A DNA stretch of 64,000 nucleotides from Kordiimonadales bacterium. GTDB lineage: Bacteria > Pseudomonadota > Alphaproteobacteria > Sphingomonadales > Kordiimonadaceae. A program made the translations under genes and the position numbers. Below, in pieces: positions 6,260-36,854 of this stretch (its first letter is position 1; every line of letters starts with the position of its first letter). The DNA lies in assembly GCA_002401685.1 (NCBI GenBank), contig NVTU01000012.1, positions 1 to 64,000 of the forward strand, in the 5' to 3' direction. The notes beneath the pieces are model-generated. The model was not told the DNA's origin, searched no databases, and worked only from the letters and a program-made list of their open reading frames with translations.

Positions 6260-8689
6260 CTATTCGTAGCGTAGGGCCCTAATCGGGTTTGCGCGCGCCA
6301 CTTTGAACGCGTGACCAGCAACCGTGGCCCAGCCAATCACAAGGACGGCCGAACTAATCAGCAAAAGCGGCCAGGGGCTCAGCTCAATTCGGTAAGCGAA
6401 ACCACTTAACCATTCGTTTGAAATATAGAGTGCGATGGGCAGCGCAGCGGCCACAGCAACCAATATTGGTTTCGAGAATTGCCACAGCAGCAGCAGCGAA
6501 ATATCACCGTACCGAGCCCCCAGCACTTTACGGATACCAATCTCCTTGGTGCGGCGCTCAACCGTGAAGGACGCCATGCCGAACAGGCCAAGGCAGGAAA
6601 TGATGATCGCAAGAACCGTGAAGGCAGTCAGTAAATTACCGATCCGGGCGTCGCCCTGATATTGCCGTTCAACCATTTCGGCCATGGACCGTGTTTGCAT
6701 CACTTGGCCAGGAAAGAAAACCTGCCATGCTTCACCAATTGCGGCTTGTGCAGCTTCAATATTTGCCGCGTCAATACGAATACTCATGTCTGAACGGCGA
6801 AACTCATCTAAATAATAGATGCCCGGGCGAATAACATCTCTGGCACTGTCAAAGTGGAAATCCGCGCTAACGCCGACAATAGTCGCGTCAAATGCAAAAT
6901 CAGAGGTCAGGTTGGTGCGAATGGTTTGACCAATGGCCGCTTCTGGGGACGCAAAGCCAAGCAGGCGCGCGCCTGCAGCGTTAATCACAATATTAACGGC
7001 CTCTCGGTATTCCCGTGTTTCCCGGGTCCGGAAGTTATCTACGCCAACAGATGCGTCGAGCGGCCGGCCGGCTAGCATTGGAATGTTGTAGACCTTAAAG
7101 AAATCAGGTCCTGTTGGCAAACCGTCCAGCTGGGCCATATCACCGCCTGCGACAGGGCGCATTTGGAGCCGGTCCTCGCTTCCTTCTGTTGGTACATCAG
7201 ACGAACGTCCTACTGATAGGATGAAAGGGCTCTCCAACAATTTAGCTTTAATGGCATCGGAGTCCTGGCCGTTAGTGCCGCTCAATACCACAAGGTTTTC
7301 TTTATCAAAACCAAGATTAAGCGTACGCGCATATTCTGTTTGCTTGGTAACAAAATAGGCCGTTGTCATCAAGGCGATGGCAATTGTGAATTGGCCCACA
7401 ACAAGCGCCGTCCGAAATCGCTGTTTGCCGCCATCCCGTGCGCCGTTACCCTGCAATACCGAACTTGGCTTAAGAACAGCAAAATAGGTGGCGTGTAAAC
7501 TTCCAGCACTTAAACCTACCACGATACCCAGCAGCGTAAGCCCTGCCAGCAAAAGCGGATTACTGAATAGATCAAACTCAATAACGGAGGCCAGAACATC
7601 ATTATAATACGGTAAGGCAAGTTCCACCAACGCTAGTGCAATCACTAGGGAAACCAACGCTAAAACGACAGATTCAGTCAAAAATTGCACAAGAACTTGG
7701 CGAGGACTGGCACCTACCGTTTTGCGAAGCGCTACTTCCCGTGCCCGGTAGGAAGTCCGAGCCATAGAGAGATTAAGAAAATTCACAACCGCAATCACAA
7801 GGATCAACAAACCGACAACCAAGAAACCCTGCAACGTTGCAAGGTCGCCGGTCAGCTCCATCCGGTAGATATGCAAGTCTTTCAAGCCAATGAGATTGAG
7901 GATCATGCCGCGGCCACGCCCAGTTTCCTGGCCGCCCGTTTCCTGAGGCATATGCTGTTCAATCAAGGCTGGTAGTTGCGCTGTAACACCAGCTACATCT
8001 GTCCCTTTCTTGAAGCGTACATAACTTCTACGCAGTGGAAAGCGCCAATCTTCGGTGAACCAGCGTCGGCCAACAAAATAATCACGACTAAAAGGAACAA
8101 TAATCTCAAAACTGAAATGCGAATTGTGCGAGAAATCTTTGATAACCCCTGCGATACGGTAGTCTTGTGTTTCGCGAACAGTTGAAGTTACAACTTTACC
8201 AAGGGCGCTCTCCCCAGGGAACAACTTGGCGGCAAGGCGCTCTGTGATTACAATTGAATTTAGATTCAGCAAGGCGCCTTCGGCATTGCCTTCAACAAAT
8301 TCAAACTGAAAAAAGTCAATAATATTGGGGTCCGCAAAGGCAGCAGGTTCCCTGAATAAATTGTCCCCCAAACGCAAATCCATGCTCGCACTGAGGTAGC
8401 GGGTAATGTCTTCCACTTCAGGATACGTTGCTAGGAATAAGTCTTTAAGCGGATCAACAGCCCCAGGCGACACACGGTCATCCCTATCAGGGTATGTCAA
8501 CGTGGTTTCAAGTTTATATGTATCTGCGCTGCGGTGCCAATTTTGGTCCCAATTATATTGGTCTCGTACGAACAGTAGGATCAATATAAAGGCTGCAAGC
8601 CCAATGGCGAGCCCTGTTATATTGATGAAGGAAAACAGTTTATGCCGTGCAAAGCTACGCAGGGCTGTCACCAGATAATTCTTATACAT
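6260..8689 (-). CDS. MacB/FtsX-type ABC transporter permease (second of the tandem set, divergent)
   Basis: This 809-residue permease begins MYKNYLVTALRSFARHKLFSF and ends NPIRALRYE. The fold is the same as its neighbours: an N-terminal helix, a periplasmic core, a first FtsX domain with VVNFLNLSMARTSYRAREVALRKTVGA near residue 300, and a second FtsX domain with FTVERRTKEIGIRKVLGA near 690. It diverges clearly from the other four: NLSMARTSYRAR replaces NLATAKSTQRAR, and the periplasmic regions differ. It may therefore be a functionally distinct subunit, for example the heterodimer partner. That is an inference; only the divergence is seen. A weak GGAAAGAG ribosome site precedes the ATG. Confidence 0.92.
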   Translation of the reverse strand: MYKNYLVTALRSFARHKLFSFINITGLAIGLAAFILILLFVRDQYNWDQNWHRSADTYKLETTLTYPDRDDRVSPGAVDPLKDLFLATYPEVEDITRYLSASMDLRLGDNLFREPAAFADPNIIDFFQFEFVEGNAEGALLNLNSIVITERLAAKLFPGESALGKVVTSTVRETQDYRIAGVIKDFSHNSHFSFEIIVPFSRDYFVGRRWFTEDWRFPLRRSYVRFKKGTDVAGVTAQLPALIEQHMPQETGGQETGRGRGMILNLIGLKDLHIYRMELTGDLATLQGFLVVGLLILVIAVVNFLNLSMARTSYRAREVALRKTVGASPRQVLVQFLTESVVLALVSLVIALALVELALPYYNDVLASVIEFDLFSNPLLLAGLTLLGIVVGLSAGSLHATYFAVLKPSSVLQGNGARDGGKQRFRTALVVGQFTIAIALMTTAYFVTKQTEYARTLNLGFDKENLVVLSGTNGQDSDAIKAKLLESPFILSVGRSSDVPTEGSEDRLQMRPVAGGDMAQLDGLPTGPDFFKVYNIPMLAGRPLDASVGVDNFRTRETREYREAVNIVINAAGARLLGFASPEAAIGQTIRTNLTSDFAFDATIVGVSADFHFDSARDVIRPGIYYLDEFRRSDMSIRIDAANIEAAQAAIGEAWQVFFPGQVMQTRSMAEMVERQYQGDARIGNLLTAFTVLAIIISCLGLFGMASFTVERRTKEIGIRKVLGARYGDISLLLLWQFSKPILVAVAAALPIALYISNEWLSGFAYRIELSPWPLLLISSAVLVIGWATVAGHAFKVARANPIRALRYE

Positions 8690-8857: not shown

Positions 8858-11332
8858 TTACTCGTATCTCAGCGCCGTTATCGGATTAGCGCGCGCCACC
8901 TTGGCTGCGTTGCCGCCAACAGTTGCCCACGCAATAGCAAGCGCCAGCAATCCTGCGATCACACAGAGCGGCGCCATCAACCACGCATCAATTCTATAAG
9001 GGAATGTTTCTAGCCACTGCATCATGCCCCACACAGTCACAGGCCATGCAATCAAATTGGCAAAAAGCACCGGCTTGGAGAACTGCCAAACAAGCAGCTT
9101 GACGATATCAAACACTTGCGCGCCCATTACCTTGCGCACGCCAATTTCCTTGGTGCGGCGCACGGCCGTAAAAGCAGCCAGCCCGTACAAGCCCAGGCAG
9201 GCAATAAGTACTGTAAGCGTCGAGAATAGCCCTAAAAGGTTTCCGGTGTTACGCTCCAGCGCAAATTGCTCACCAACGATCTCTTCAATAAATTGGCTAT
9301 CATAAGGTGTGCCTTGCATAACCCTTTTCCAAGCATCCTCAACCGCGGCATTAATGACTGCAGGGTCTCCTGAAAAGCGCGCTGTCATGGCATTGATCTG
9401 GGTAGGCCACAGCGCATAAAATTCAGGCTTTACTGGTAGCTTCAAGCCTCTGAAATACGTATCTGGCACAACACCAACAATAATGAAATCTGCCCTATTG
9501 CCGCCACCAACTGTCATATTGAGCACTTTACCAAGTGCCTCGTCTGGCGACGCAAAGCCAATCCGTTTCAAAGCGCTTTCGTTAACGATTGCAGCACTTG
9601 TTAGGGTCTCGCCTTCAGGCGCGGTTTGGCGGAACGGGAACACATCGGTAGAAAAATCACGGCTGAACGAGCGGCCAGCGAGCAAGGGGATTTCATAGGT
9701 TTTGAAATAATCGTAACCGACCGTCTGGCGGCTGATTACTACATCTCCAATTTCAGCATTCCCGGGTACCCTGATGCTCTGATTACGTTCGCTGCTTGCA
9801 AACGGCGTATCAAAGCCAAAGGTAACGCTTTCAATGCCTTGGATACGTTCGACCTCGGCCCTGAAGGCCTCGTGTTTCTGACGGGCAGCAGCTTGGTTAA
9901 AACCGCCAACCACCAACATGTTTTCTTTAGTAAAGCCTGGCTCAAGATTGTTCGCATACAGCATTTGCCCGTAGACAACACCCGTCGCAACAATCAAGCC
10001 AATTGAGATGGAAAACTGAAATGTCACCAAGCCACCGCGTAGCAAATTGCTACCTTTTGTCTCGGTAGCGCGACTGGACTGCAATACCCGTGACGGGCGG
10101 AAGCCAGAGACCACAAGCGCAGGATACGAGCCGCCCAAAATACCAACAAACGCGACCAAACCGCCTACAAGTCCCCAAACCTGAAGGTTGTCGTACGGCA
10201 TATTCAGCTCTTTTCCGAGCACAGCGCCAAGATACGGTGCCCCAACTTCAACCAGCGCTATCGCCAAAAGCATGCCAATAACAGCTATCAAGGTACTTTC
10301 GCCCAAAAACTGCAGTACCAACTGACGGCGCTCAGCACCCATCACTTTGCGCATCGCCACTTCGCGTGCGCGGCGCGTGCTGCTGGCGATCGCCAAATTC
10401 ATAAAATTGATACAGCCGACTATAAGGATAAGGCCAGCTATTGCCGAAAACATGGTAACGCGCGCTATGTCGCCTGTTGGTTTGAAATCACCGCCCTGCA
10501 GGTGTGACGAGCCGAGCTGGATATCAACCAACGCCTGCCGGTGAAGCCCAAGAAATTCGGTCGCAGGGCCATCATTGCCACTACGCACTGCCGCCGGGAT
10601 AACAGCTTGGGTATCGACAAACGCTTTCATGCGGGCATCAAAGGCAGCCACGTCGGTGCCTTCCTTGAACTGTACAAAAACCATACCCTGCACATTGTAC
10701 CAAAAGTTTGGCTCGCGCTGATCGACATACAAGGAGATCGCCGGCATAACGAGCGCCGTCGTTGTCGGCAGGTCTTCATATATAGCGCCGACAATGGCAT
10801 CCTGTTTCTGGTTGCCTATTGTTACAGTCAGTGTTTGTCCCAGCGCGACATCAGCGCCAAAATATTTAGTCACCAACGTCTCACTAAGGGCAATCATGCC
10901 AGGGTTCCCAAGAACCTCCGCCATACTGCCCTGCAAGACCGTTAATTGGAACATATCCTGGAAATCAGGATCGACCTGCAGGACCAATTCTTGAAAGCTG
11001 TTGCCGTCCTTTTCAATAATCGGTTGTGCAGGACGCAAGCGGGTGGTTTTTTCGATGGCATCAGCAAAATAAGTTGCAGCAGCCGTACGCGCCACGTCGG
11101 GCGCGTAGGCAAGAGGCATAGGCTCCCTGCCAGGTAATTTGAAAGTCGTGGTAATACGGTGCAATTGTTCCGCATTCGCCCAGTGCTTATCGTAAGAAAT
11201 CTCATCGCGAACAAACAGCATGATCGCAATACAGGCGGCAAGGCCAACGGCCAAGCCAACTGTATTGATCACGCTAAATAGTTTGTTTTTAATCAGGTTT
11301 CTAAGTGCAACAACAACGTAATTCTGGAACAC
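8858..11332 (-). CDS. MacB/FtsX-type ABC transporter permease (first of the tandem set)
   Basis: This 824-residue permease starts at a GTG codon (GTG TTC CAG AAT) behind a GGGGAAAG ribosome site and ends NPITALRYE. It has an N-terminal helix, a periplasmic core, a first FtsX domain (CINFMNLAIASSTRRAREVAMRKVMGA near 310) and a terminal FtsX domain (FTAVRRTKEIGVRKVMGA near 710). It is the permease nearest the ATPase gene, with a gap of about 42 nt, so it is the best candidate for the core partner. The family includes MacB, LolCE and lantibiotic-resistance permeases; without a fused ATPase it resembles the split permeases found with HlyD-like adaptors and sigma54 two-component genes in many Gram-negatives. 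Confidence 0.92.
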   Translation of the reverse strand: MFQNYVVVALRNLIKNKLFSVINTVGLAVGLAACIAIMLFVRDEISYDKHWANAEQLHRITTTFKLPGREPMPLAYAPDVARTAAATYFADAIEKTTRLRPAQPIIEKDGNSFQELVLQVDPDFQDMFQLTVLQGSMAEVLGNPGMIALSETLVTKYFGADVALGQTLTVTIGNQKQDAIVGAIYEDLPTTTALVMPAISLYVDQREPNFWYNVQGMVFVQFKEGTDVAAFDARMKAFVDTQAVIPAAVRSGNDGPATEFLGLHRQALVDIQLGSSHLQGGDFKPTGDIARVTMFSAIAGLILIVGCINFMNLAIASSTRRAREVAMRKVMGAERRQLVLQFLGESTLIAVIGMLLAIALVEVGAPYLGAVLGKELNMPYDNLQVWGLVGGLVAFVGILGGSYPALVVSGFRPSRVLQSSRATETKGSNLLRGGLVTFQFSISIGLIVATGVVYGQMLYANNLEPGFTKENMLVVGGFNQAAARQKHEAFRAEVERIQGIESVTFGFDTPFASSERNQSIRVPGNAEIGDVVISRQTVGYDYFKTYEIPLLAGRSFSRDFSTDVFPFRQTAPEGETLTSAAIVNESALKRIGFASPDEALGKVLNMTVGGGNRADFIIVGVVPDTYFRGLKLPVKPEFYALWPTQINAMTARFSGDPAVINAAVEDAWKRVMQGTPYDSQFIEEIVGEQFALERNTGNLLGLFSTLTVLIACLGLYGLAAFTAVRRTKEIGVRKVMGAQVFDIVKLLVWQFSKPVLFANLIAWPVTVWGMMQWLETFPYRIDAWLMAPLCVIAGLLALAIAWATVGGNAAKVARANPITALRYE

Positions 11333-11374: not shown

Positions 11375-12058
11375 TTACTGAGCCGCCCGAAGGTTTTCTG
11401 TCACTACATGACCATCAAACAAGTTGATCGTGCGGCGGGCATAGTCTGCGTGGGATGGGCTGTGTGTAACCATCACGATAGTTGTGCCTTCTTCGTTCAG
11501 TGACTGGAGCATCTCCATCACTTCCTGACCGTGCGCACTATCCAAGTTACCAGTTGGCTCATCCGCGAGGATCATCGCTTGGTCACCAACAACCGCGCGC
11601 GCTACAGCGACACGCTGCTGCTGACCACCTGAAAGCTGACTTGGCATATGCTTGGCACGGTGGGCAATACCAACCTTGTCCATCACATGCGCAACGCGCT
11701 CTTTCCGAATTTTTGACGGGATATTATGGTACAGCAGTGCGAGCTCAATGTTTTCCGCAACTGTCAGCTCGTCAATCAAGTTAAACGACTGGAAAATGAA
11801 GCCAATGTTCTGCTTCCGGATATTGGCAAGCTTTGCTTCTGAGTATCCTGCAACGTCTTCACCCATGAAGACATATTCGCCGCTAGATGGGTTATCGAGC
11901 ATGCCGATAATATTCAGGAGCGTAGATTTACCGCACCCTGAAGGGCCCATGATTGCAACAAACTCGCCACTTTCAATCTCGATATTGACGCTGTTGAGCG
12001 CCACTGTTTCGACTTCATCTGTCCGGTAGTATTTTGATAGATTATGAAGCTTGAGCAT
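11375..12058 (-). CDS. ABC transporter ATP-binding protein, LolD/MacB type
   Basis: This 227-residue ATPase powers the permeases encoded downstream. Walker A is GPSGCGKST (residues 38-46), the Q-loop lies at FIFQ (about 87-90), the signature LSGGQ is at 142-146, Walker B with ADEP at 165-168, and the switch histidine at 199. The size and the QSFNLIDELTVAENI segment are typical of the LolD/MacB/FtsE class that works with FtsX-fold permeases at the inner face of the membrane. It is the only ATPase gene in the operon although five permeases follow, so it is probably shared. An AAGGAC ribosome site lies 6 nt before the ATG. Confidence 0.95.
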   Translation of the reverse strand: MLKLHNLSKYYRTDEVETVALNSVNIEIESGEFVAIMGPSGCGKSTLLNIIGMLDNPSSGEYVFMGEDVAGYSEAKLANIRKQNIGFIFQSFNLIDELTVAENIELALLYHNIPSKIRKERVAHVMDKVGIAHRAKHMPSQLSGGQQQRVAVARAVVGDQAMILADEPTGNLDSAHGQEVMEMLQSLNEEGTTIVMVTHSPSHADYARRTINLFDGHVVTENLRAAQ

Positions 12059-12287: not shown

Positions 12288-13652
12288 TTAATCAGACCCC
12301 AGTTTCAGACGGTCCATTTCTACGAAGCTAGTATAGGGCGACGTCACTACACGCTCACCAACCTCAAGACCATCCAGCACTTCGATGAAGCGCGCATTCC
12401 TCCGGCCCAAACGGACAGACCGCTTTACCGCCTGGCTACCGTCTTCGGAAACCACAAACACCCAGTTACCGCCAGTATCCTGGAAGAAGGCGCCATTCGG
12501 GATAAGTTTCGCTTTTGTAGCATCGCCAAGTGTCAAACGAGTTTGGATCGTTTGGCCGCGGCGGATACCCGTTGGCTGTGCGCCGTTAAATACGAAATCA
12601 ACAACGAACTGGCCATTATTTACCTGAGGGTAAATTTTGGAAATGCGCATCGCATAATTGATACCAGTGCGCTCAAACGTTGCCGCCTGACCAAGATCAA
12701 CACGACCGAGGTAAAATTCGTCAATATTCGCTGTCAGCTTATAATTGTCAGGATCATCAATCTGCCCTAACCGGTTGCCGCGTGGGATGCTCTGGCCAAT
12801 CTCAACATTGAAGCCAGAAAGCTTGCCGTCCACAGGCGCCCGTACATTCAGGCTATCCAAGTTTCTGCGCGCAACCACAATGCTCTGCTCAAGCCGCTCA
12901 CCCGAACTACGCAGAAACCTCAGCTGGTCTTCTTGCAAACGTGCATCGGTAGTCTGGCTCTCCAGCGTTATTTCACGCAGGTTAATTTGATACTCAAGAC
13001 TATCCTCAGTATCATCTAGGCGGGTGCGTGTAATCGCTCCTGTTTCAAAAAGATCGCGTTCACGGATGGCTTGGCGGGTCAACGTTTTGATTTGATAATT
13101 GATATCAACCAGACTTCGCTTATGCCCAAGACGCGTGCGTTCTAGCGCCAATTCCTGGGTGCGCAAATTATTCAGCTGCTCTGTTACCCGTGTTTCGTTG
13201 GCCGTGAAGCTAACCTGCAGATTGCTGTTGGAAAGTTCAACGATCAAGTCGCCCTTTTTAAGAGCGGCGCCGTCTTCAACCATAATGCGCTCAACTCGGC
13301 CGCCTTCGATCGCATCCAGATACAGCGTCTTAAGAGGTGTCACCCGGCCGCGTACCGGAATAAAATCCTCAAACGTGCCTTCGCTAACACTGGAGACCAC
13401 AAGCCTGCTGGCAGGTACCTTAAAGCTTCTGCCACCTTGGGCATCCTGCACCATTGTGAAAATGAAATATGCGGCACCCATTGCAACGGCGCCATAGGCG
13501 AGCCACTTTAGCGGCTGTTTCTTCTTGGCAAACACACGGTCCATGCCTTCACCAGACTGAGCCTTGCGGTCCGTTGAGCCTAAAGGCTTCATCGAAATAG
13601 GCTTTGTACCGGTCGGTCCCTCGGTCCCTGATTTTTTCTGCTCTGCTGGCAT
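12288..13652 (-). CDS. HlyD/RND-type periplasmic adaptor (membrane fusion protein)
   Basis: This 454-residue adaptor is the first gene of the exporter operon. It has a cytoplasmic N-terminus rich in Lys and Gly, and one membrane helix at about residues 50-67 (LKWLAYGAVAMGAAYFIF). A lipoyl/barrel-sandwich half follows (GGRVERIMVEDGAALKKGDLIVELSNSNLQ), then a long coiled-coil hairpin (about 140-275), the second lipoyl half (VRAPVDGKLSGFNVEIGQSIPRGNRLGQI) and beta-barrel and membrane-proximal domains. Such proteins bridge an inner-membrane ABC permease to an outer-membrane channel. No TolC-like gene is seen in the window. A second in-frame ATG lies at residue 37 (MDRVFAKKKQ); I keep the first because GGA sits at ribosome-site distance before it. 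Confidence 0.92.
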   Translation of the reverse strand: MPAEQKKSGTEGPTGTKPISMKPLGSTDRKAQSGEGMDRVFAKKKQPLKWLAYGAVAMGAAYFIFTMVQDAQGGRSFKVPASRLVVSSVSEGTFEDFIPVRGRVTPLKTLYLDAIEGGRVERIMVEDGAALKKGDLIVELSNSNLQVSFTANETRVTEQLNNLRTQELALERTRLGHKRSLVDINYQIKTLTRQAIRERDLFETGAITRTRLDDTEDSLEYQINLREITLESQTTDARLQEDQLRFLRSSGERLEQSIVVARRNLDSLNVRAPVDGKLSGFNVEIGQSIPRGNRLGQIDDPDNYKLTANIDEFYLGRVDLGQAATFERTGINYAMRISKIYPQVNNGQFVVDFVFNGAQPTGIRRGQTIQTRLTLGDATKAKLIPNGAFFQDTGGNWVFVVSEDGSQAVKRSVRLGRRNARFIEVLDGLEVGERVVTSPYTSFVEMDRLKLGSD

Positions 13653-13721: not shown

Positions 13722-13738
13722 AGCAAGGGGCGTGCCAC
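13722..13738 (-). promoter_or_regulatory. sigma54 (RpoN) promoter of the exporter operon
   Basis: On the minus strand this reads TGGCACGCCCCTTGCTA. The -24 element TGGCACG and -12 element TTGCT have the exact spacing of the RpoN consensus. The expected start is near 13711, giving a leader of about 60 nt before the adaptor ATG. The sigma54-activator gene lies immediately on the other side of this gap, which makes the assignment coherent. Confidence 0.85.
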
Positions 13739-13776: not shown

Positions 13777-13792
13777 TGTCCAATACCGGACA
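13777..13792. promoter_or_regulatory. Candidate activator site 1 (UAS), palindrome
   Basis: TGTCCAATACCGGACA is an inverted repeat with TGTCC/GGACA arms, lying about 40 nt upstream of the -24 element. It matches 14 of 16 bases of TGTTCAATACCGAACA found before the orphan permease. It is probably bound by the NtrC-family regulator encoded at 13883. Confidence 0.7.
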
Positions 13793-13800
13793 CATTATTC

Positions 13801-13816
13801 TGTACGATTTCGAACA
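13801..13816. promoter_or_regulatory. Candidate activator site 2 (UAS), palindrome
   Basis: TGTACGATTTCGAACA has the same TGT-N10-ACA frame as site 1, with its centre 24 bp away. It shares its first eight bases with site 3. Confidence 0.62.
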
Positions 13817-13821
13817 CTTAG

Positions 13822-13837
13822 TGTACGATCACGGACA
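13822..13837. promoter_or_regulatory. Candidate activator site 3 (UAS), palindrome
   Basis: TGTACGATCACGGACA is centred 21 bp (two helical turns) from site 2 and lies about 45 nt before the regulator's own start codon. That position would also allow autoregulation. Confidence 0.62.
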
Positions 13838-13882: not shown

Positions 13883-15295
13883 ATGGCAAAAGAAGGTAAA
13901 ATTCTAATAGTTGACGACGATGAGGACATTTTGATCGCCGCTAAACTACTGTTAAAAAGACACTATAAAACGGTCCTTACGTGCAACCGGCCTGAGCATG
14001 TGCCGACGATGATGGCCGACCATGTATTCGAAGCCATTTTGCTTGATATGAATTTTAGCCCTGGCGAAAGCTCTGGTGAACAGGGTTTTATACTGCTTGC
14101 CAAAATACTGGAGATCGACCCGCAAGCTGTTGTCGTGATGATAACTGCGCACGGGGGCGTCAATATTGCCGTAGAAGCGATCAAGCAAGGCGCGACAGAT
14201 TTTATATCGAAACCCTGGGAAAACCAGAAGGTTATCGCCACGCTTTCAGCCAGCGTGAAACTGCGGCGCTCGCGCTCAGAAGCCGAGCAACTAAAAAGCA
14301 CCAACAGGGCCATCGCCAAAGTTGTTAGCACGCCGAGCCAGCCGATCCTCGGCGGCAGTAAAGCAATGAAAGATATGATGTCTGTTATTGCTCGCGCAGC
14401 GCCCACGGACGCTAATGTTTTGCTGCTGGGTGAGAACGGTACAGGCAAAGAACTTGCGGCTCGTGAGCTGCACCTACAATCAAACCGAGCCGATAAAATT
14501 TTCATGTCTGTGGACCTGGGCGCGGTCACAGAAAGCCTCTTTGAAAGTGAGCTGTTTGGTCACAAAAAAGGGGCCTTTACCGGCGCAAATGAGGACCGGG
14601 TTGGCCGCATTCAGGCGGCAGCTGGGGGCACGCTTTTTCTGGATGAAGTAGGTAATTTACCGCTTCACCAACAGGCCAAGCTTCTAACGGTTTTGGAACA
14701 ACGGAAAGTGCTGCCCGTCGGGTCTGATCGGGCCATCTCTATTGATGTGAGAGTGATCGCAGCCACTAACGTTCCGCTCGCAAAATTACGGGATGAAGAT
14801 ACTTTTCGGCAGGATCTGCTGTTCCGGCTCAACACGGTGGAGATCACTATCCCACCGCTCCGCGACAGGGCGTCTGATATCGCCGAGATCGCCAAGCATT
14901 ATGCCGAGTTTTACTGCAAGAAATACAACAAGCCAGTTAAAGGTTTTTCCGCTGACGCAATGGCCGCCATTCAGGCTTACAGTTGGCCGGGCAACGTACG
15001 GGCACTGCGCCACACGCTCGAGCGGGCGGTCATTCTCTCAAATGACGACCAATTTATGCCAGAGGATTTCCAGCTGAACGCGCAGCCGCGCCAAGCTGGC
15101 GATGTAGCACCGGTTGCCGGCAATAATACGGCAACTGATATTAATCCGCAGGCCGATCTGAATTTGGAACGGCTTGAATATAGGGCCATTGAGCATGCAT
15201 TAAAGAAGCATCGCTATAATATCAGCCACGCGGCAAAGGAATTGGGCCTAACGCGCGCAGCACTATACAGAAGGATGGAAAAGCATGGGCTTTAA
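13883..15295 (+). CDS. NtrC-family sigma54-dependent response regulator
   Basis: This 470-residue transcription activator has three domains. The receiver (about 5-125) has the acidic pocket DDDED at 11-15 and phospho-acceptor Asp55. The AAA+ sigma54-interaction domain (about 155-385) has Walker A GENGTGKE near 183, the GAFTGA loop near 230 that contacts sigma54, and Walker B GGTLFLDEVG near 250. The C-terminal Fis-type helix-turn-helix (about 425-470) reads HRYNISHAAKELGLTRAALYRRM. It overlaps the kinase gene by 11 nt, so the two are translationally coupled. It diverges from the exporter operon, whose promoter is of sigma54 type, and is its likely activator. The ribosome site is weak (AGGCTCAG). 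Confidence 0.95.
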   Translation: MAKEGKILIVDDDEDILIAAKLLLKRHYKTVLTCNRPEHVPTMMADHVFEAILLDMNFSPGESSGEQGFILLAKILEIDPQAVVVMITAHGGVNIAVEAIKQGATDFISKPWENQKVIATLSASVKLRRSRSEAEQLKSTNRAIAKVVSTPSQPILGGSKAMKDMMSVIARAAPTDANVLLLGENGTGKELAARELHLQSNRADKIFMSVDLGAVTESLFESELFGHKKGAFTGANEDRVGRIQAAAGGTLFLDEVGNLPLHQQAKLLTVLEQRKVLPVGSDRAISIDVRVIAATNVPLAKLRDEDTFRQDLLFRLNTVEITIPPLRDRASDIAEIAKHYAEFYCKKYNKPVKGFSADAMAAIQAYSWPGNVRALRHTLERAVILSNDDQFMPEDFQLNAQPRQAGDVAPVAGNNTATDINPQADLNLERLEYRAIEHALKKHRYNISHAAKELGLTRAALYRRMEKHGL

Positions 15296-16637
15296 ACGAT
15301 TTAGCATCTTCTTAGGGATCCGCCTGATTATCATCATGGTTGCCCTTTTAGGCCTCACGTTTTTATATAATGCGGAGCGCTTTTTTGCCTCGACAATCCT
15401 CGCTTTCGCGGTTGTTGTTGTGCTCAGTTTTGAGATGATCCGGTTCGTTTCAAAAACGAATGCCGAGGTTACGCGGTTCCTTGATGCTGCGCGTTATGCA
15501 GATTTTGGCCAGCGATTTAACTTCCAGGGGATGGGCGCAGGCTTTGGCGATCTCGGCGACACATTCACCGATATTCTTAAGCGCTTTCAAGTCGTTAGGG
15601 CAACAAAAGAAGCTGAGCTCAGGCACTTAAAAGCGCTAATAGAACACGTGCCGTCGCCCCTGATCTCTGTGCATGCCGACGAAAAGCTGACACTATGGAA
15701 CAATGCTGCTCGGCGCTTATTCGGCAGCGCCCATGTAACGCGCATTACTGATTTGGCCCAGTTCGGTGACGACTTTAAAAAGGAAGTACGCGACATAAAA
15801 GCAGGCCAACGGCGGCTGGTCACTTTCGAGGTAGACGGCATCGAACAACGCCTAACCATCGCCTCCACGCAAATCATCATCGGCGGCCATATTGAACGCC
15901 TCGTAAGCTTGCAGGACATCCAAAGCGAACTTGATGCAGCCCAGCTACAGGCATGGCAGGACCTCGTACGCGTGCTGACCCACGAGATTATGAATTCCAT
16001 TACACCAGTAGCGTCGCTGGCTAAAACCGCCGTTGATCTGGTGGATGACGTATTGGGTAAAATCGAAGGCCAACCCGAAATACTTGAAGAATTGAATGAC
16101 GTAAAAGACGCTGTTAACACGGTGGCGCGTCGCTCTGATAACTTGATGAAGTTTGTATCAAGTTACCGCAGCCTTACACGCCTGCCACCACCTGAAAAAT
16201 CCTTAATTCGCATTGATGACCTGCTTGCTGGTGTTGCCAAAGTTGCCACACAGGGCTGGAATGAACGCGGCCTGTCGCTCGTAAGCAGCGTAGAGCCCAG
16301 CGAGCTGGACGTTATGGCGGACAGGGACATGGTAGAGCAGGTTCTGATCAATCTATTACAAAACGCTGGGCAAGCGCTCGAAGGCACTAAAGACGGTACA
16401 GTATGGCTTAACTCACACCTCAATAAACGTGGTCATATTATCATCGAAGTGGTCGACAACGGTCCCGGTATTCCCGCAGATATAGCTAAGAAAATTTTCG
16501 TACCCTTCTTCACCACAAAACGCGAGGGCAGCGGCGTTGGCCTTGCCTTAACACGGCAAGTGATGATCGCGCACGGCGGTGCTGTCTCGGTTGCGGAACG
16601 CGAAGAAGGCGGTGCCAAATTCACGCTTACATTCTAA
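15285..16637 (+). CDS. PAS-domain sensor histidine kinase, NtrY-like
   Basis: This 450-residue membrane kinase is the partner of the preceding response regulator. Two closely spaced N-terminal helices (about 8-27 and 32-50) leave almost no periplasmic loop, so it may sense membrane or intramembrane signals, or the state of the transporter. That is an inference. A linker and PAS-like domain span about 100-215. The phospho-acceptor H-box is LTHEIMNSITPVASL near 235. The ATPase domain has an N-box (INLLQNAGQALEG near 355), the G1 box VVDNGPGIP and the G2 region GSGVGLAL. Start and context agree: the gene begins inside the last codons of the regulator. Confidence 0.93.
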   Translation: MGFKRFSIFLGIRLIIIMVALLGLTFLYNAERFFASTILAFAVVVVLSFEMIRFVSKTNAEVTRFLDAARYADFGQRFNFQGMGAGFGDLGDTFTDILKRFQVVRATKEAELRHLKALIEHVPSPLISVHADEKLTLWNNAARRLFGSAHVTRITDLAQFGDDFKKEVRDIKAGQRRLVTFEVDGIEQRLTIASTQIIIGGHIERLVSLQDIQSELDAAQLQAWQDLVRVLTHEIMNSITPVASLAKTAVDLVDDVLGKIEGQPEILEELNDVKDAVNTVARRSDNLMKFVSSYRSLTRLPPPEKSLIRIDDLLAGVAKVATQGWNERGLSLVSSVEPSELDVMADRDMVEQVLINLLQNAGQALEGTKDGTVWLNSHLNKRGHIIIEVVDNGPGIPADIAKKIFVPFFTTKREGSGVGLALTRQVMIAHGGAVSVAEREEGGAKFTLTF

Positions 16638-31221: not shown

Positions 31222-33645
31222 CTATTCATAACGCAACGCTGTGATTGGACTTTGGCGTGCCACTTTTAGGGCATGCACCGCGATGATAACCCAGGACAGA
31301 AGCGTTGAGACCACTCCGGCAAAAATAATCCAATAGATTGCGCCATCGATTCGCTCTGCAAACAGCATAAGATATTCCTCAGCCCCGATGTAAGCCAGCG
31401 GTACCGCGATCAGGATCGCCAACATTACGGGACGTGAAAACTGTAAAATCAGCATCTGCACTAACTGACTAATGCCAGCCCCTAGTATTTTTCTCAGGCC
31501 AATTTCCTTCGTGCGCTTTTGAGCCATAAAAGCAGCGATCCCAAACAGGCCAATCAAAGCCAGCAAAACAGCGAGCGTTGCAAAGCCTGCGATCACTCCG
31601 TTCACCATTCGCATCACTTTGAAAGCCTCATCAAAATCAGCATCGAGAAAACTCCAGTCAATGGGATTTTCCGGCAGGACGGTGGCCCAAACACGTTCGA
31701 TGCTCTCGATGGTTTCTGGCCCCGCGCCCTCCGTAAGCCGGAGGGATAATCTGAAATTGAAATCGGGCTCCATCAACATTATGAAAGGCACGACGTCATT
31801 TTGAAGACCTAAAATGTTGCGGTTTTCCATCACCCCGACAATTTGATATTCGAAGGGATTACTAGCGCCATTATAAATGGATTGCCCTACGGCTTCTTCT
31901 GGGCTGCTAAAGCCAAGCTGCTGGCTGAACAAACGGTTTACCAATATGTTACGCCGGCGCACCGTGCTGTCCCGCACATCGCTAGAGACTTCACGAGAAA
32001 AATCACGCCCTGCAATGATTGGAATATCGTAGAGCTTCAAAAAATCATAATCGATGTGCATATTATTGGTGCGGACGGTATTATCAGCGTCGCCCTTAAG
32101 GCGCGACACCCGCATGCCCCAATTCTGCGCCATAAACGGCACTTGGCTGCTAAAGCTGGCCAAGGAGACACCTGGTATTGCCCGCAGTTCACGCGTCAGA
32201 ACCTCGCGTCGAGCTGTGACATCCTCGTTGAAGACCCGGCTAAGCACGATCACCTGCCCCTTGGGGAAAATAGCGCTGCCCTCAGCAACTTTTTCGTTCT
32301 GGGCATAAATAACAAAGACCAAGGCCATCATCACAATTGTTATGACAAATTGGCTAACCATCATCAGTTTACGGAATCCACTACCCGTGCTGCCTTTCGT
32401 CGCCACGTCTTTCAACGCTTCAACTGGGCTGGTGCCTAAAATAACAAAAGCCGGATATGCGCCCGCTGCGAGGCCGACAAGAACCGTGGTACCAAACAGC
32501 CAAGGTAGAGTGGTCAGATAGTCGAACATAAGAATTTTATCGGTGACTTGATTAAAGACCGGCACCGCCAGTTCCACCAAGGTCAAAGCCAGAACCATTG
32601 CCACCAAGACAATCGCCTGGCTTTCGATCAGAAATTGGATGAGCAGTTCCTTTCGGCCTGCACCCAAAGTTTTTCGCAACCCAACCTCGCGTGACCGCCC
32701 CATGTTCTGGGCCGTTGCCAGATTTGCGTAATTGATAACAGCAATCGCCAGCACAAGCAGACCGAGCACTTTTAGTGTGGCTATGAAGGGCACACCAAGC
32801 TGGTTCCAATAGCTCAAATTTGCTTCTTTTAACAAACGAGCATTCAAGCCAATCACAGAACGGTCCACGAGGTTAGAAACCGCCTGTTTGAACAGTGTAT
32901 TAAGCTGTTGATTAAGCGTTTCGGCAGACAAGGCGCCATCTGTCATCACATAGAGAACATTCGCGGTCTGAACGCGGTTAAAGTCCGTTTCAACTTCCCA
33001 ACTATCGTCATAGGTTGCGTAATTTTCCAGGAGCGTGAATGCATCTAACGAAGCCAATTCATCAACGCTGCCGCTGAAGTGGCTATCTTTTGCGACATCA
33101 GCAATCACCGCCACGATGACCATGTCAGCCTTTTTGTCCAAGTTTATCGACTGCCCAACCACATCGGTGCGGCCAAAGATCTTCTTAGCAAGCGCGGCGC
33201 TCACCACCATCATATTCGGGCCGGATAGGCTGTCAGCACTGCCGTGCAAATAGGTGAAATTGAACATTGCTATGAAATCCGCATCAACGAATTTTACAGT
33301 CTCATAAAAAGATTTTTCGCCTGCGGATATCAGAAACTCGTTTTCCATACGTCTCGCAACGCCCTGTAGCTGCGGCATTTGCGCGGCGATGATCGGCTGC
33401 AAACCGGTATAGCTGCCAGTGCTTTCAACGTCGCTGTTACTATAAGCCGGATTCCAGACGCTCGAGACCATATAAATGCGGTCGTTGTTGGCGAACATGC
33501 TGTCATGATTGCTCTCATAATCGGCAATCAGCCCCGCCATTAGATAAACCGAAAGGCCTACCGCCAAACCGACTACATTTATCAAAGCATAAAGCCGATT
33601 GCGTGCAAGTTGACGCAAAGCAATCTTTATATAATTGGATAACAT
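31222..33645 (-). CDS. Orphan MacB/FtsX-type ABC transporter permease
   Basis: This 807-residue permease has the same architecture as the tandem set at 1-11332. It begins MLSNYIKIALRQLARNRLYALINVVGLAVGLSVYLMAGL and has a periplasmic core. The first FtsX domain carries VINYANLATAQNMGRSREVGLRKTLGA near 305, the second carries FMAQKRTKEIGLRKILGA near 700, and the C-terminus is PITALRYE. AGGAG lies 5 nt before the ATG. No ATPase or adaptor gene is adjacent, so it must borrow them, most likely from the operon at 11375-13652. Its upstream region has an RpoN-type promoter and two palindromes like those of that operon. It is a distinct, diverged lineage of the same family. Confidence 0.92.
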   Translation of the reverse strand: MLSNYIKIALRQLARNRLYALINVVGLAVGLSVYLMAGLIADYESNHDSMFANNDRIYMVSSVWNPAYSNSDVESTGSYTGLQPIIAAQMPQLQGVARRMENEFLISAGEKSFYETVKFVDADFIAMFNFTYLHGSADSLSGPNMMVVSAALAKKIFGRTDVVGQSINLDKKADMVIVAVIADVAKDSHFSGSVDELASLDAFTLLENYATYDDSWEVETDFNRVQTANVLYVMTDGALSAETLNQQLNTLFKQAVSNLVDRSVIGLNARLLKEANLSYWNQLGVPFIATLKVLGLLVLAIAVINYANLATAQNMGRSREVGLRKTLGAGRKELLIQFLIESQAIVLVAMVLALTLVELAVPVFNQVTDKILMFDYLTTLPWLFGTTVLVGLAAGAYPAFVILGTSPVEALKDVATKGSTGSGFRKLMMVSQFVITIVMMALVFVIYAQNEKVAEGSAIFPKGQVIVLSRVFNEDVTARREVLTRELRAIPGVSLASFSSQVPFMAQNWGMRVSRLKGDADNTVRTNNMHIDYDFLKLYDIPIIAGRDFSREVSSDVRDSTVRRRNILVNRLFSQQLGFSSPEEAVGQSIYNGASNPFEYQIVGVMENRNILGLQNDVVPFIMLMEPDFNFRLSLRLTEGAGPETIESIERVWATVLPENPIDWSFLDADFDEAFKVMRMVNGVIAGFATLAVLLALIGLFGIAAFMAQKRTKEIGLRKILGAGISQLVQMLILQFSRPVMLAILIAVPLAYIGAEEYLMLFAERIDGAIYWIIFAGVVSTLLSWVIIAVHALKVARQSPITALRYE

Positions 33646-33739: not shown

Positions 33740-33755
33740 AGCAACAAATATGCCA
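33740..33755 (-). promoter_or_regulatory. sigma54-type promoter of the orphan permease
   Basis: The minus strand reads TGGCATATTTGTTGCT: -24 TGGCAT (consensus TGGCAC) and -12 TTGCT with the correct spacing, identical in length to the element at 13722-13738. The predicted start is near 33728, 83 nt before the ATG. Confidence 0.75.
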
Positions 33756-33827
33756 GACCCAAAAATATAAATATATATAGTTTTCATACACTTATGTTGT
33801 TGCTGCAGCATAACATTCATAAAATTT

Positions 33828-33843
33828 TGTTCGGTATTGAACA
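33828..33843. promoter_or_regulatory. Candidate activator site A (UAS)
   Basis: TGTTCGGTATTGAACA lies about 75 nt upstream of the -24 element. It is the exact reverse complement of site B at 33848-33863. Confidence 0.72.
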
Positions 33844-33847
33844 AGTT

Positions 33848-33863
33848 TGTTCAATACCGAACA
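33848..33863. promoter_or_regulatory. Candidate activator site B (UAS)
   Basis: TGTTCAATACCGAACA is centred 20 bp (two helical turns) from site A and differs at only two symmetric positions from TGTCCAATACCGGACA at 13777-13792. This points to the same regulator. Confidence 0.74.
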
Positions 33864-34021
33864 CTGATAACTTCCCATTGGTGCAAAATCATGGAGCTGA
33901 CAGGACTGCGCTCAATCCCATTTACTCTGGCTGTTTGGAGCAATGTTTAATCGGTAACAGCGCGCTCCCTGCACCGTATAACAAGAGTGTTATGACTGCC
34001 CGATTTCCTAAAAACGCCCAT

Positions 34022-34058
34022 AAAAAAAGCCCCGGATCCATGATCCGAGGCGGTCTTT
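34022..34058. terminator. Decayed duplicate of the lpd terminator
   Basis: The core CCCCGGATCCATGATCCGAGG copies the hairpin at 35385-35423, but mismatches (GAGGCGGTC in place of GGGGCG) have weakened the stem and the T-run is shortened to TTT. Confidence 0.75.
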
Positions 34059-34082
34059 GAATACTAAAAAAGTGCAGATGCA

Positions 34083-34281
34083 CTACATATGAATTGTACG
34101 CTTATGGGCGGCTAGCGCCGCTTCCTTCATCGCCTCAGTTTCAGTCGGATGCGCATGGCATGTTAGCGCAATATCTTCTGCTGAAGCCCCAAACTCCACC
34201 GCTGTTGCAGCCTGCGCAATCATGTTGCCCGCGTCCGCACCTATGATATGCACACCCAGGATGCGGTCGGTTTCCTCCCCC
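34083..34281 (-). pseudogene. lpd 3'-end fragment, displaced copy
   Basis: This matches the last ~65 codons of lpd (35448-36854), from about [18 protein letters not shown] to the terminal HKRTIHM and stop. It includes the catalytic HAHPTETE segment and then the terminator. About 15 of ~195 bases differ. Nearly all are silent; visible changes are Met to Val, Val to Ala and Lys to Glu. Homology ends abruptly near 34281, and the open frame continues into unrelated codons ([12 protein letters not shown]) to a stop with no start codon. It cannot make a working enzyme. Confidence 0.88.
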
Positions 34282-34384: not shown

Positions 34385-34930
34385 CTAGCCAGCCGCTTGC
34401 ATGGCTTTGCTAAAAGCCGTCTTAGCGTTCGGTGCAGCAAAACGCTTTTTCCGCCGGTCCTCACCTTGAAATTCTTTTTTAAACCGCCTGCGGCTCGGGC
34501 CAATATACGTACTTGTGCGGATAAACTCTTTTGGCTTACCCGACACGGCGACCAAACGCTCCTCAAGCTGTTTACCCGTGAAAGGCACGCTCATGATCTC
34601 GCTCACACCGGCGTCCCGAGAATCGACAACCTTTTCAATATCTGGCGTCGACATGATCATAATGATCGGCGCCTCAGCCACAGGCCCGTCTGTCATCCGA
34701 ATGAAACGACTAAAGTCCGGTCCACCAAACTCTTCAAGGTGATGGCCAATAAAAAAATGTGTGAAGTCGAAGTCGCGCATGCGGCTAACCGCATCTTTTG
34801 AATGATGCACCAGCTGCACATGCCCCGCACCGTTATTTTTCAAAAAATGCCAAACATAGTCAGCCAACTGCTTATTTGACAAAGCAACTAACACTTTCAT
34901 CGCCCCAAAATCTACTCGGCGGCCAGTCAT
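34385..34930 (-). CDS. Degenerate receiver-domain (CheY-like) protein
   Basis: This 181-residue protein has residues 11-135 that fit a receiver fold: MKVLVALSNKQLADYVWHFLKNNG, then FDFTHFFIGHHLEEFGG, IIMIMSTPD and AGVSEIMSVPFTGKQLEERL. The usual phospho-acceptor Asp after the third strand appears replaced (FFIGHHL), and the N-terminal acidic pair is missing, so normal phosphorylation is unlikely. The basic C-terminal tail (SRRRFKKEFQGEDRRKKRFAA) could bind nucleic acid or a partner. GGAAG lies before the first ATG; a second ATG at residue 11 starts the domain directly. It lies between intact lpd and the lpd remnant, which suggests acquisition. Confidence 0.75.
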   Translation of the reverse strand: MTGRRVDFGAMKVLVALSNKQLADYVWHFLKNNGAGHVQLVHHSKDAVSRMRDFDFTHFFIGHHLEEFGGPDFSRFIRMTDGPVAEAPIIMIMSTPDIEKVVDSRDAGVSEIMSVPFTGKQLEERLVAVSGKPKEFIRTSTYIGPSRRRFKKEFQGEDRRKKRFAAPNAKTAFSKAMQAAG

Positions 34931-35384
34931 TTCGATGCTTCCTAAACATGAACCAAAGCTATAGGTTCGGCGTTAAAAACAAAGCTGCGGATACAACGCA
35001 GCTACATGCCTCGCCCCACCCTCGGTAGTAAATTCTAAGACTAACGTCAATAAATTTGGAGCAAGACCTTAGTGTTTAGCAAGTATAGATACGTAAAATA
35101 GGGATGTATGGATGCATTCTCACGAAAAATTTAGCGCTCGTTATCAATAGGTAAGGGAAAATTTAACCATGAATCTTAGATTTTGTAGAAAAGATTTAAC
35201 AATAAATTACAAAAATATCATTAAGTTAGGTTAGGAAGACTAGATCAAGGAAAGAACGAATCACTTCGTTCCTATACTTATATAAAGACCCAACCTTTAA
35301 TTATGGTCTTCCAAGGCCCTTTATCTCGCATGCATTGTGAAGAAAGTACTTCAACGACAGTATGTCATGCCAGTCAGACGCCAA
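34931..35384. other. AT-rich intergenic region
   Basis: About 450 nt carry no supported gene. The part at 35155-35240 is markedly AT-rich and could hold the promoter of the receiver-like gene. No RNA gene was recognised. Confidence 0.45.
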
Positions 35385-35423
35385 CAAAAAACGCCCCGGA
35401 TCCATGATCCGGGGCGTTTTTTT
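35385..35423. terminator. Strong bidirectional terminator after lpd
   Basis: A near-perfect palindrome (ACGCCCCGGATC / GATCCGGGGCGT around a CAT centre) has A6 on one side and T7 on the other, 25 nt after the lpd stop. It terminates the TCA operon. Confidence 0.95.
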
Positions 35424-35447
35424 AACACCGAAACTGCGGTGATAGCA

Positions 35448-36854
35448 CTACATATGAATTGTACGCTTATGGACGGCTAGCGCCGCTTCCTTCATCGCCT
35501 CAGTTTCAGTCGGATGGGCATGGCATGTTAGTGCAATATCTTCTGCTGAAGCCCCGAACTCCATCGCTGTCGCAGCTTGTGCAATCATGTTGCCTGCGTC
35601 TGCACCAATGATATGCACACCGAGGATGCGGTCAGTTTCCTTGTCCGCAAGGATCTTCACAAAGCCTTCAGTAGCCTGATTGGCCTTCGAGCGGCTGTTT
35701 GCAGTGAAGGGGAATTTACCAACATTGTAGGCCGTACCGTCTGCCTTCAAATCTTCTTCCGACTTGCCAACAGTTGCTACTTCAGGCGCTGTGTAAACAA
35801 CGCCTGGAATAACCGCGTGATTAACGCTGCCGTTCAGGCCCGCGATATTCTCAGCGCAGGCAACGCCTTCGTCTTCTGCTTTGTGCGCCAGCATTGGTCC
35901 TTCAACCACATCGCCAATCGCCCAAACACCCGCAACGTTGGTTGAGAAATCGGCGCCAATTTTAATGCGGGACCGTTCGTCCATCTCAACGCCAATGGTC
36001 TCAAGCCCAAGTCCGTAGGTATAGGGATGCCGTCCAACGGCCACCAGTACAACATCTGCCTCTATCGTGGTGCTGTCGCCGCCTTTAACAGGCTCGAACG
36101 TCACCTTGGCCGATTTGCCATTATTTTCAACAGCCGTCACTTTGTTGGAAAGCTTCAGGGTCATGCCCTGCTTCTTCATCATGCGGCCAAAGGTCTTGCG
36201 CACTTCCATGTCCATGCCCGGCAGGACCTGATCCATAAATTCTACAACGGTGATGTCAGCGCCCAAGCGGCCCCAAACAGAACCGAGCTCCAATCCGATC
36301 ACGCCGCCACCAATAACAACCATGCTTTTAGGGGCTGGGTTCAGATCAAGCGCCCCAGTGGACGACACTACTATTTTTTCGTCAATTTCCACGCCTGGCA
36401 AGCTCGCAACGTCACTACCAGTGGCAATGATGGTATTCTTGGCCGTTACAGTGCGGCTACCGCCGTCATTCAGCGCAACTTCGATGGTGTCTTTACCGGT
36501 GAACTTGCCAGCGCCTTTGATCCATTCGATCTTGTTCTTTTTGAATAGAAACTCGATGCCGCCCGTGAGGCTTTTTACGGTTTCGTCCTTTGATGCCAGC
36601 ATTTTTCCAATATCAACGCTGAGGCCTTTCACTGACAAGCCAAACTTTTCAAAGTCGTGCCCGGCCTCGTGGTACAAGTGCGATGCATGCAGTAGCGCTT
36701 TTGAAGGCATACAGCCCACGTTCAAGCACGTCCCTCCAAGCGTTTCGCGCTTCTCAATGCAGGCCACATTCAAGCCGAGCTGTGCAGCTCTAATAGCAGC
36801 CACATAGCCGCCAGGCCCAGATCCAATTACAACAACATCAAAAGCGTCAGACAT
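35448..36854 (-). CDS. lpd: Dihydrolipoyl dehydrogenase (E3)
   Basis: This 468-residue flavoprotein reoxidises the lipoyl groups of 2-oxoglutarate dehydrogenase, passing electrons to NAD. It has the FAD-binding motif GSGPGGYVAA (residues 11-20) and the redox disulfide Cys43/Cys48 in GGTCLNVGCMPSKALL. The NAD-binding motif is VVIGGGVIGLELGSVWGRLGA near 180, and the C-terminal catalytic HAHPTETE is near 447-454. It is the last gene of the mdh-sucCDAB-lpd operon but is separated from sucB by a hairpin terminator at 36905-36943, so it may have partly independent expression. A copy of its 3' end lies at 34083-34281. Confidence 0.97.
   Translation of the reverse strand: MSDAFDVVVIGSGPGGYVAAIRAAQLGLNVACIEKRETLGGTCLNVGCMPSKALLHASHLYHEAGHDFEKFGLSVKGLSVDIGKMLASKDETVKSLTGGIEFLFKKNKIEWIKGAGKFTGKDTIEVALNDGGSRTVTAKNTIIATGSDVASLPGVEIDEKIVVSSTGALDLNPAPKSMVVIGGGVIGLELGSVWGRLGADITVVEFMDQVLPGMDMEVRKTFGRMMKKQGMTLKLSNKVTAVENNGKSAKVTFEPVKGGDSTTIEADVVLVAVGRHPYTYGLGLETIGVEMDERSRIKIGADFSTNVAGVWAIGDVVEGPMLAHKAEDEGVACAENIAGLNGSVNHAVIPGVVYTAPEVATVGKSEEDLKADGTAYNVGKFPFTANSRSKANQATEGFVKILADKETDRILGVHIIGADAGNMIAQAATAMEFGASAEDIALTCHAHPTETEAMKEAALAVHKRTIHM

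Follow-up and report, generated by a model that had tools for sequence, protein, structure and literature searches.

The closest described systems are the RpoN/bEBP regulons with paired palindromic enhancers, namely those of NtrC, GlrR/QseF and NorR, the last with three sites. Their activators have the same receiver, AAA+ and Fis-type HTH arrangement as the regulator discussed below, and two or three palindromes lie upstream of a -24/-12 element, as they do here. The operator is another matter. The GlrR/QseF enhancer reads TGTC-N10-GACA (PMC4987338, PMC8745638), whereas our sites are 16 bp long and read TGTNC-N6-GNACA, and as far as the accessible text of these two papers goes our palindrome differs from the consensus of NtrC, PrpR, FhlA and GlrR alike. 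The enhancer sequences listed for the Salmonella activators in that text of PMC4987338 do not include it either. The targets are also unlike those of the known regulons, being an ABC exporter and scattered permeases. The present system we take to be a bEBP/RpoN regulon, of a kind already described, whose targets are unusual: an exporter, permeases without an ATPase, and an undescribed small protein in one genus.

A link between sigma-54 and such permeases has been drawn before. In gamma-Proteobacteria, Opitutia and Bacteroidia, a 2025 study (PMC12316311) found predicted sigma-54 promoters enriched at FtsX-like/COG0577 permeases, a link that its authors call the first of its kind. In its accessible portions the link is a statistical enrichment; no activator or operator is named for these permeases, alpha-Proteobacteria are not listed and the word 'orphan' does not occur. 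The accessible portions of PMC3162934 mention neither permeases nor exporters, and our literature search returned no report of the present operator, the activator assignment, a scattered-permease regulon or the peptide. What the present locus adds is a candidate activator, an operator code and a defined set of targets.

On the transporter side, the darobactin exporter DarB/DarC/DarD and the MacAB-type tripartite exporters have an adaptor, a separate ATPase and an FtsX-type permease, and so does the exporter in the window, by which we mean the whole 64,000-nucleotide stretch of DNA analysed. All of its genes are on the minus strand. By domain and family matches the first encodes a periplasmic adaptor of the HlyD/MacA type (12288-13652) and the next an ABC ATPase that is MacB/LolD/DarD-like (11375-12058). 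Four permeases called from their reading frames and domain matches follow, A (8858-11332), B (6260-8689), C (3680-6181) and D (1124-3595), and inspection of the genome gives a partial fifth (3-1064), truncated because contig C1 starts within it. Several permeases per ATPase set it apart from both the darobactin and the MacAB-type exporters, and the darobactin models (NF038007, NF038010, NF038008) stay below their cut-offs, with 278.4 of 375 bits for DarD, 207.6 of 450 for DarC and 106.4 of 700 for DarB.

The exporter promoter lies 20 kb from a duplicated FtsX/MacB-type permease of 807 amino acids (31222-33645, minus strand) that has no ATPase gene beside it, and which we call the orphan. It passes both Pfam cut-offs, each domain in two stretches, with 82.4 bits against 27 for MacB_PCD (PF12704) and 71.5 against 25.5 for FtsX (PF02687). 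In MacB proper the ATPase is fused to the permease; the orphan scores 28.1 bits on that model (PRK10535) where 966 are needed, and has no ABC_tran. It is like ADOP (TIGR03434) in being a duplicated MacB/FtsX permease, over residues 6-807, without an adjoining ATPase gene, and here too it falls below the cut-off (246.9 against 622.3 bits).

Read in the orphan's own direction, the order is two 16-bp palindromes, 72 bp, an RpoN-type -24/-12 element and the permease gene. The promoter-proximal palindrome, TGTTCGGTATTGAACA, is at 33828-33843 (plus strand), and the other, its exact reverse complement, is at 33848-33863 (minus strand), 20 bp away from start to start. The -24/-12 element TGGCATATTTGTTGCT (33740-33755, minus strand) has one mismatch against TGGCAC-N5-TTGCW. 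The exporter promoter carries three copies of the 16-bp palindrome on the minus strand, TGTCCGGTATTGGACA nearest the promoter (13777-13792), TGTTCGAAATCGTACA in the middle (13801-13816) and TGTCCGTGATCGTACA as the distal one (13822-13837), together with a sequence match to -24/-12, TGGCACGCCCCTTGCT (13722-13737, minus strand). The copy nearest the promoter equals TGTTCGGTATTGAACA at 14 of 16 bases, and both differences are symmetric. A preliminary description of this DNA had pointed to the inverted pair with its 20-bp offset, to the RpoN-type element and to the symmetric 14-of-16 match, and all of them were found in place.

The same description held that chance recurrence was unlikely, and here it is important to realize what is being counted. 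Single operators with up to three mismatches occur 3 times in the window against 0.45 expected, a count that 2 of 100 shuffles also reach, and over the whole genome they number 78, with 67 for the pattern reversed as a control, an excess that hardly lifts the single site above the genomic background. Elements of the -24/-12 type with one mismatch number 6 in the window where 3.9 are expected. Taken singly the sites tell little, and the claim holds for the composite. This is defined as a pair of operators spaced by 18-36 bp and followed 25-110 bp downstream by a -24/-12 element, and it occurs in the window only at the exporter and orphan promoters and in none of 100 first-order Markov windows. 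A strict tandem pattern gave no match to its reversed control in any of 59 genomes; since it requires TGTTC at one outer end, it overlooks pairs whose outer letters differ. It is the composite that is not due to chance.

Next to the exporter, on the plus strand, is the proposed activator, an NtrC-family response regulator (13883-15295) with a receiver, a sigma-54 AAA+ domain with GAFTGA and a Fis-type HTH. Its proposed partner is a histidine kinase (15285-16637, plus strand) with PAS and HATPase_c domains, in which HEIMNSITP is likely the H-box. In NCBIfam the regulator matches the PEP-CTERM regulator PrsR (TIGR02915) best, at 368.8 bits below the cut-off of 502.6, and the kinase gives 78.4 bits with PrsK (TIGR02916), below the cut-off of 300. 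A 96%-identical counterpart of the regulator exists in MAG NORP254, which puts the organism close to Kordiimonadaceae, and rpoN is encoded in the window's own genome. The sequence features that one looks for in an RpoN/bEBP regulon are present: a -24/-12 element, paired upstream enhancer sites, a GAFTGA activator and an encoded RpoN.

We believe it very probable that the regulator, at tandem upstream activating sequences (UAS) and with RpoN, switches on the exporter, the scattered permeases and a small-peptide gene, although the binding and the sharing of an ATPase belong to the interpretive part of this proposal. The kinase would sense a signal and presumably phosphorylate the regulator, which would then bind the paired palindromes as tandem enhancer sites and activate RpoN polymerase at -24/-12. 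The adaptor-ATPase-permease exporter, the scattered permeases and the peptide gene would thus come on simultaneously. With the operator control in common, permeases that lack an ATPase would be made together with the exporter's ATPase, and they may serve as exchangeable specificity subunits using that ATPase and its adaptor.

How far this control extends can be seen in the window's own genome, a MAG of 2.68 Mb in 63 contigs that is 77% complete. The strict pattern finds five places and no controls (the exporter, the window's orphan, two places on C24 and one on C49), and every one of them precedes the exporter or a permease of the orphan's family. Nine permease loci that are not part of the exporter operon were inspected, and paired operators with -24/-12 were found at six stand-alone permeases, the orphan at C1 31222, one each on C50, C49 and C26, and two on C24; the pairs on C50 and C26 each include one operator that matches at 7 of 8 positions. 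Two of the eight stand-alone permeases, on C22 and C51, have no operator, nor does the C46 permease, which comes after the ATPase gene of another system. The nearest kin of the C22 permease (C22:23357-25831) in G009, G014 and G015 do have one, and a loss of operator control is possible in this case. A 42-codon reading frame on C63 has the eighth promoter in front of it, made up of a full operator, a 7-of-8 operator and TGGCACGGAGCTTGCG. The set reached by inspection is therefore the exporter, six stand-alone permeases and one basic-peptide gene. The preliminary description had one kinase/activator pair controlling six permeases at two loci. Its idea of shared control is well supported by the comparative evidence below, while its scope has to be redrawn to eight promoters: those of six stand-alone permeases, of the exporter operon, where four permeases are whole and a fifth is partial, and of the peptide gene.

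The operator scan fixed eight positions, and what the sites have at the others is informative. Every one of 134 distinct full sites has R at position 6 and Y at position 11. A or T stands at position 8 in 131 of them and at position 9 in 133, and position 4 favours T (86) or C (35). From these counts the site reads TGTYC-R-N-WW-N-Y-GNACA over 16 bp, or TGTNC-R-N4-Y-GNACA with position 4 left free. The gap from the nearest operator to -24 is 38-41, 50-53, 60-65 or 69-75 bp at 86 of 88 promoters, centring on about 39, 52, 63 and 72 bp. In the window's own genome the gaps are 39, 50, 62, 63, 72, 73, 73 and 74 bp, and these eight promoters, taken by themselves, are phased so strongly that a fraction of 0.0009 of random sets equals them. 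A period of 11 or a little above fits best, rather than 10.5. Face-of-helix spacing is no more than suggested by these gaps, orthologous promoters not being independent.

Relatives provide the broader comparison. We searched 59 genomes, the window's own and 58 relatives, calling the regulator at E<=1e-90 and permeases at E<=1e-30. The regulator is found in 36. Strict tandem pairs occur in 29 of these and in none of the 23 genomes without it (Fisher p 1.7e-10, kinship ignored). The remaining seven regulator genomes (G012, G016, G019, G033, G045, G051, G056) all have operators beside the regulator on a relaxed scan. All 35 regulator loci inspected, that is all but the one in G029, have at least two operators (7/8 or better) and a -24/-12 (8/11 or better) towards the adaptor gene, and 18 have three operators in a row. 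The permease family is present in all 36 regulator genomes and, among the matches listed, in at least two of the 23 others, G008 and G022, both of them fragmented drafts with no detected regulator.

Away from the regulator there are 32 strict places in the relatives, each with a -24/-12 (8/11 or better) facing the next gene, which is a permease at 26, a peptide gene at 5 and a TolC-type gene at 1. Conservation of the operators in relatives had been proposed as a check, and it is seen at the regulator loci and at these 26 permease places. A relaxed scan of 20 stand-alone permeases of relatives, missed by the strict pattern and picked by hand among the matches listed (G017 left out), found paired operators with -24/-12 at 12 and no operator pair at 8. 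The spacing is 33 bp in five of the 12 and 31 bp in one. Those five promoters (L208, L210, L211, L212, L218), with 33 bp against the usual 19-24, all have the -24 variant TGGCCC. One of the 26 permease places, L160 3157-3194 on G029 C90, is inside an exporter cluster, with a permease gene on either side, and its operator pair with -24/-12 would be an internal promoter of that cluster. That one kinase/activator pair controls the exporter and the orphan permease through RpoN is, as a prediction from these comparisons, well supported.

The alternative that survives best accepts the shared regulator and disputes the shared motor. The orphans may work with another ATPase, or not transport at all, for example as envelope-stress proteins induced in parallel. 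FtsX itself acts in signalling, not transport, and the window's orphan shares only about 30% identity with the permeases of the exporter in its genome. We give this alternative a substantial chance, somewhat short of even. The history of the orphan argues against it. In a quick tree of 70 permeases (6 of 70 rows unlabelled, context labels set from coordinates, operonic rows mostly best matches to the window's orphan, long branches at L012, L130, L117 and L163) the orphan groups at SH-aLRT 100 with exporter-cluster permeases of G023 and G025 and with one permease of G006 whose context is ambiguous. In the next wider clade 14 of 17 rows are operonic, and in G051 the orphan's relative adjoins the exporter ATPase. 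With its nearest kin in exporter operons and this position in G051, the window's orphan most likely left such an operon, and would now be a former exporter-operon permease that stands by itself with its control retained. Ten changes of the label 'orphan with operator' have to be placed on the tree, and well-supported branches force 8 of these; from these changes the scattering of permeases seems to have occurred repeatedly.

A second argument against separate motors concerns what lies around the orphans. No homologue of the exporter ATPase (E<=1e-3) occurs in the orphans' flanks, the only regions searched, among 42 sequences of unequal and sometimes short length; the matches in those 42 are confined to the window's exporter, the exporter clusters of L148 and L160, and L037, which belongs to another system. 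The permeases themselves speak less clearly. Over 64 of them the best-conserved segments are two around [GL]xRKxLGA motifs, at 2.7-3.2 bits per 15-residue window, against 0.8 to 2.7 bits in periplasmic windows, and their majority residues are near-identical between orphans and operonic permeases. By topology these segments are predicted to be cytoplasmic. Conserved cytoplasmic loops would fit the use of one ATPase, yet they are a general feature of the FtsX family.

The boldest form of the sharing proposal could be called 'one motor, many channels': a single ATPase-adaptor pair serving about ten interchangeable permeases, six of them tied to it only by the operator, with the peptide as cargo, signal or feedback inhibitor. 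Taken as a whole we think this rather unlikely, and put it forward tentatively. The narrower point is that the operator appears to link ATPase-less permeases transcriptionally to one exporter, and this offers a testable answer on the role of duplicated FtsX permeases without an ATPase and on their tie to a motor.

The remaining alternatives concern the operators. Another NtrC-family activator could bind those of the orphan, or several activators could share them, and the genome does encode five more NtrC-type activators, recognised by their sigma-54 AAA+ matches. We consider this improbable given that the operator pair stays beside the regulator gene at every inspected locus and that the strict pair is missing from all 23 genomes without the regulator, all of which presumably have other activators of the family. 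Still less credible is that the inverted pair is no protein site and acts as an RNA hairpin or terminator, with a 16-bp stem and a 4-base loop. The orphan's two sites are perfectly complementary in the window, but this is true of only 2 of 110 distinct composites, on which ground we reject the idea. Over the 8 variable positions the match averages 3.89, compared with 3.69 (sd 0.11) for shuffled partners, direct comparison gives a higher 4.31, and no T-run follows the orphan's inverted pair. As for chance resemblance of AT-rich promoter DNA, it might account for single 16-mers with up to three mismatches, which barely exceed their control genome-wide, but for the composite it is refuted and has next to no probability, as the composite and tandem controls are zero and the sites precede one gene family.

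The small peptide gene deserves separate mention, since an undescribed co-regulated protein may point the way to the substrate of the exporter or to its signal. The copy in the window's own genome encodes a basic peptide of 42 residues (C63:62674-62796, minus strand, L011). A PilZ gene is convergent to it, and an acyltransferase gene then follows on the peptide's strand. Peptide genes of 31-42 amino acids occur in six of 29 genomes of the family, all within the window's genus (19 of the 29), at L011, L132, L133, L134, L137 and L138, each behind an operator pair with -24/-12. The peptides are rich in arginine, with MxFLNEV-like starts and RRRxRRYK-like ends. Six members searched against NCBIfam and Pfam gave no family up to E=1. 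A profile scored below 1e-4 for its six seeds only, matches at 0.0096 to 1 being set aside as noise, so there is no new member. Two PDB matches at E about 0.06 we take as chance, and one Rfam match was far below its gathering score. An inverted repeat and a T-run, read by eye, follow the reading frame in four of the six (G001, G004, G006, G011). The leader has a recurring CGACAGCRAGGA-like stretch ahead of the start codon.

Several smaller observations remain. The single TolC-type gene, an outer-membrane gene (PF02321) at L129 3551-5254 in G055, stands behind a paired operator with -24/-12. As a general member of the regulon TolC was rejected, operators being present at one of nine TolC-type loci examined, in G055 only, and at E<=1e-40 a TolC query matched nothing in the genome of the window itself. 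In a different phylum, a Tenacibaculum MAG has a locus (L128) where adaptor-ATPase faces regulator-kinase. The DNA separating its adaptor and regulator genes holds a paired operator, one site full and the other matching at 7 of 8 positions (L128 2936-2973). A slightly looser tandem pattern finds only this place in that genome and has no match in the Bacteroidales genome of L127, and L128 shows no -24/-12 at our thresholds. Back in the window, just upstream of the orphan's operators, a weak receiver-domain reading frame (34385-34930) sits between two copies of the 3' end and flank of a dihydrolipoyl dehydrogenase gene (35448-36854). The copies, 34014-34276 and 35378-35641, are 1365 bp apart and match over 197 nt at 93% and 56 nt at 82%; this repeat pair is a local duplication or insertion.
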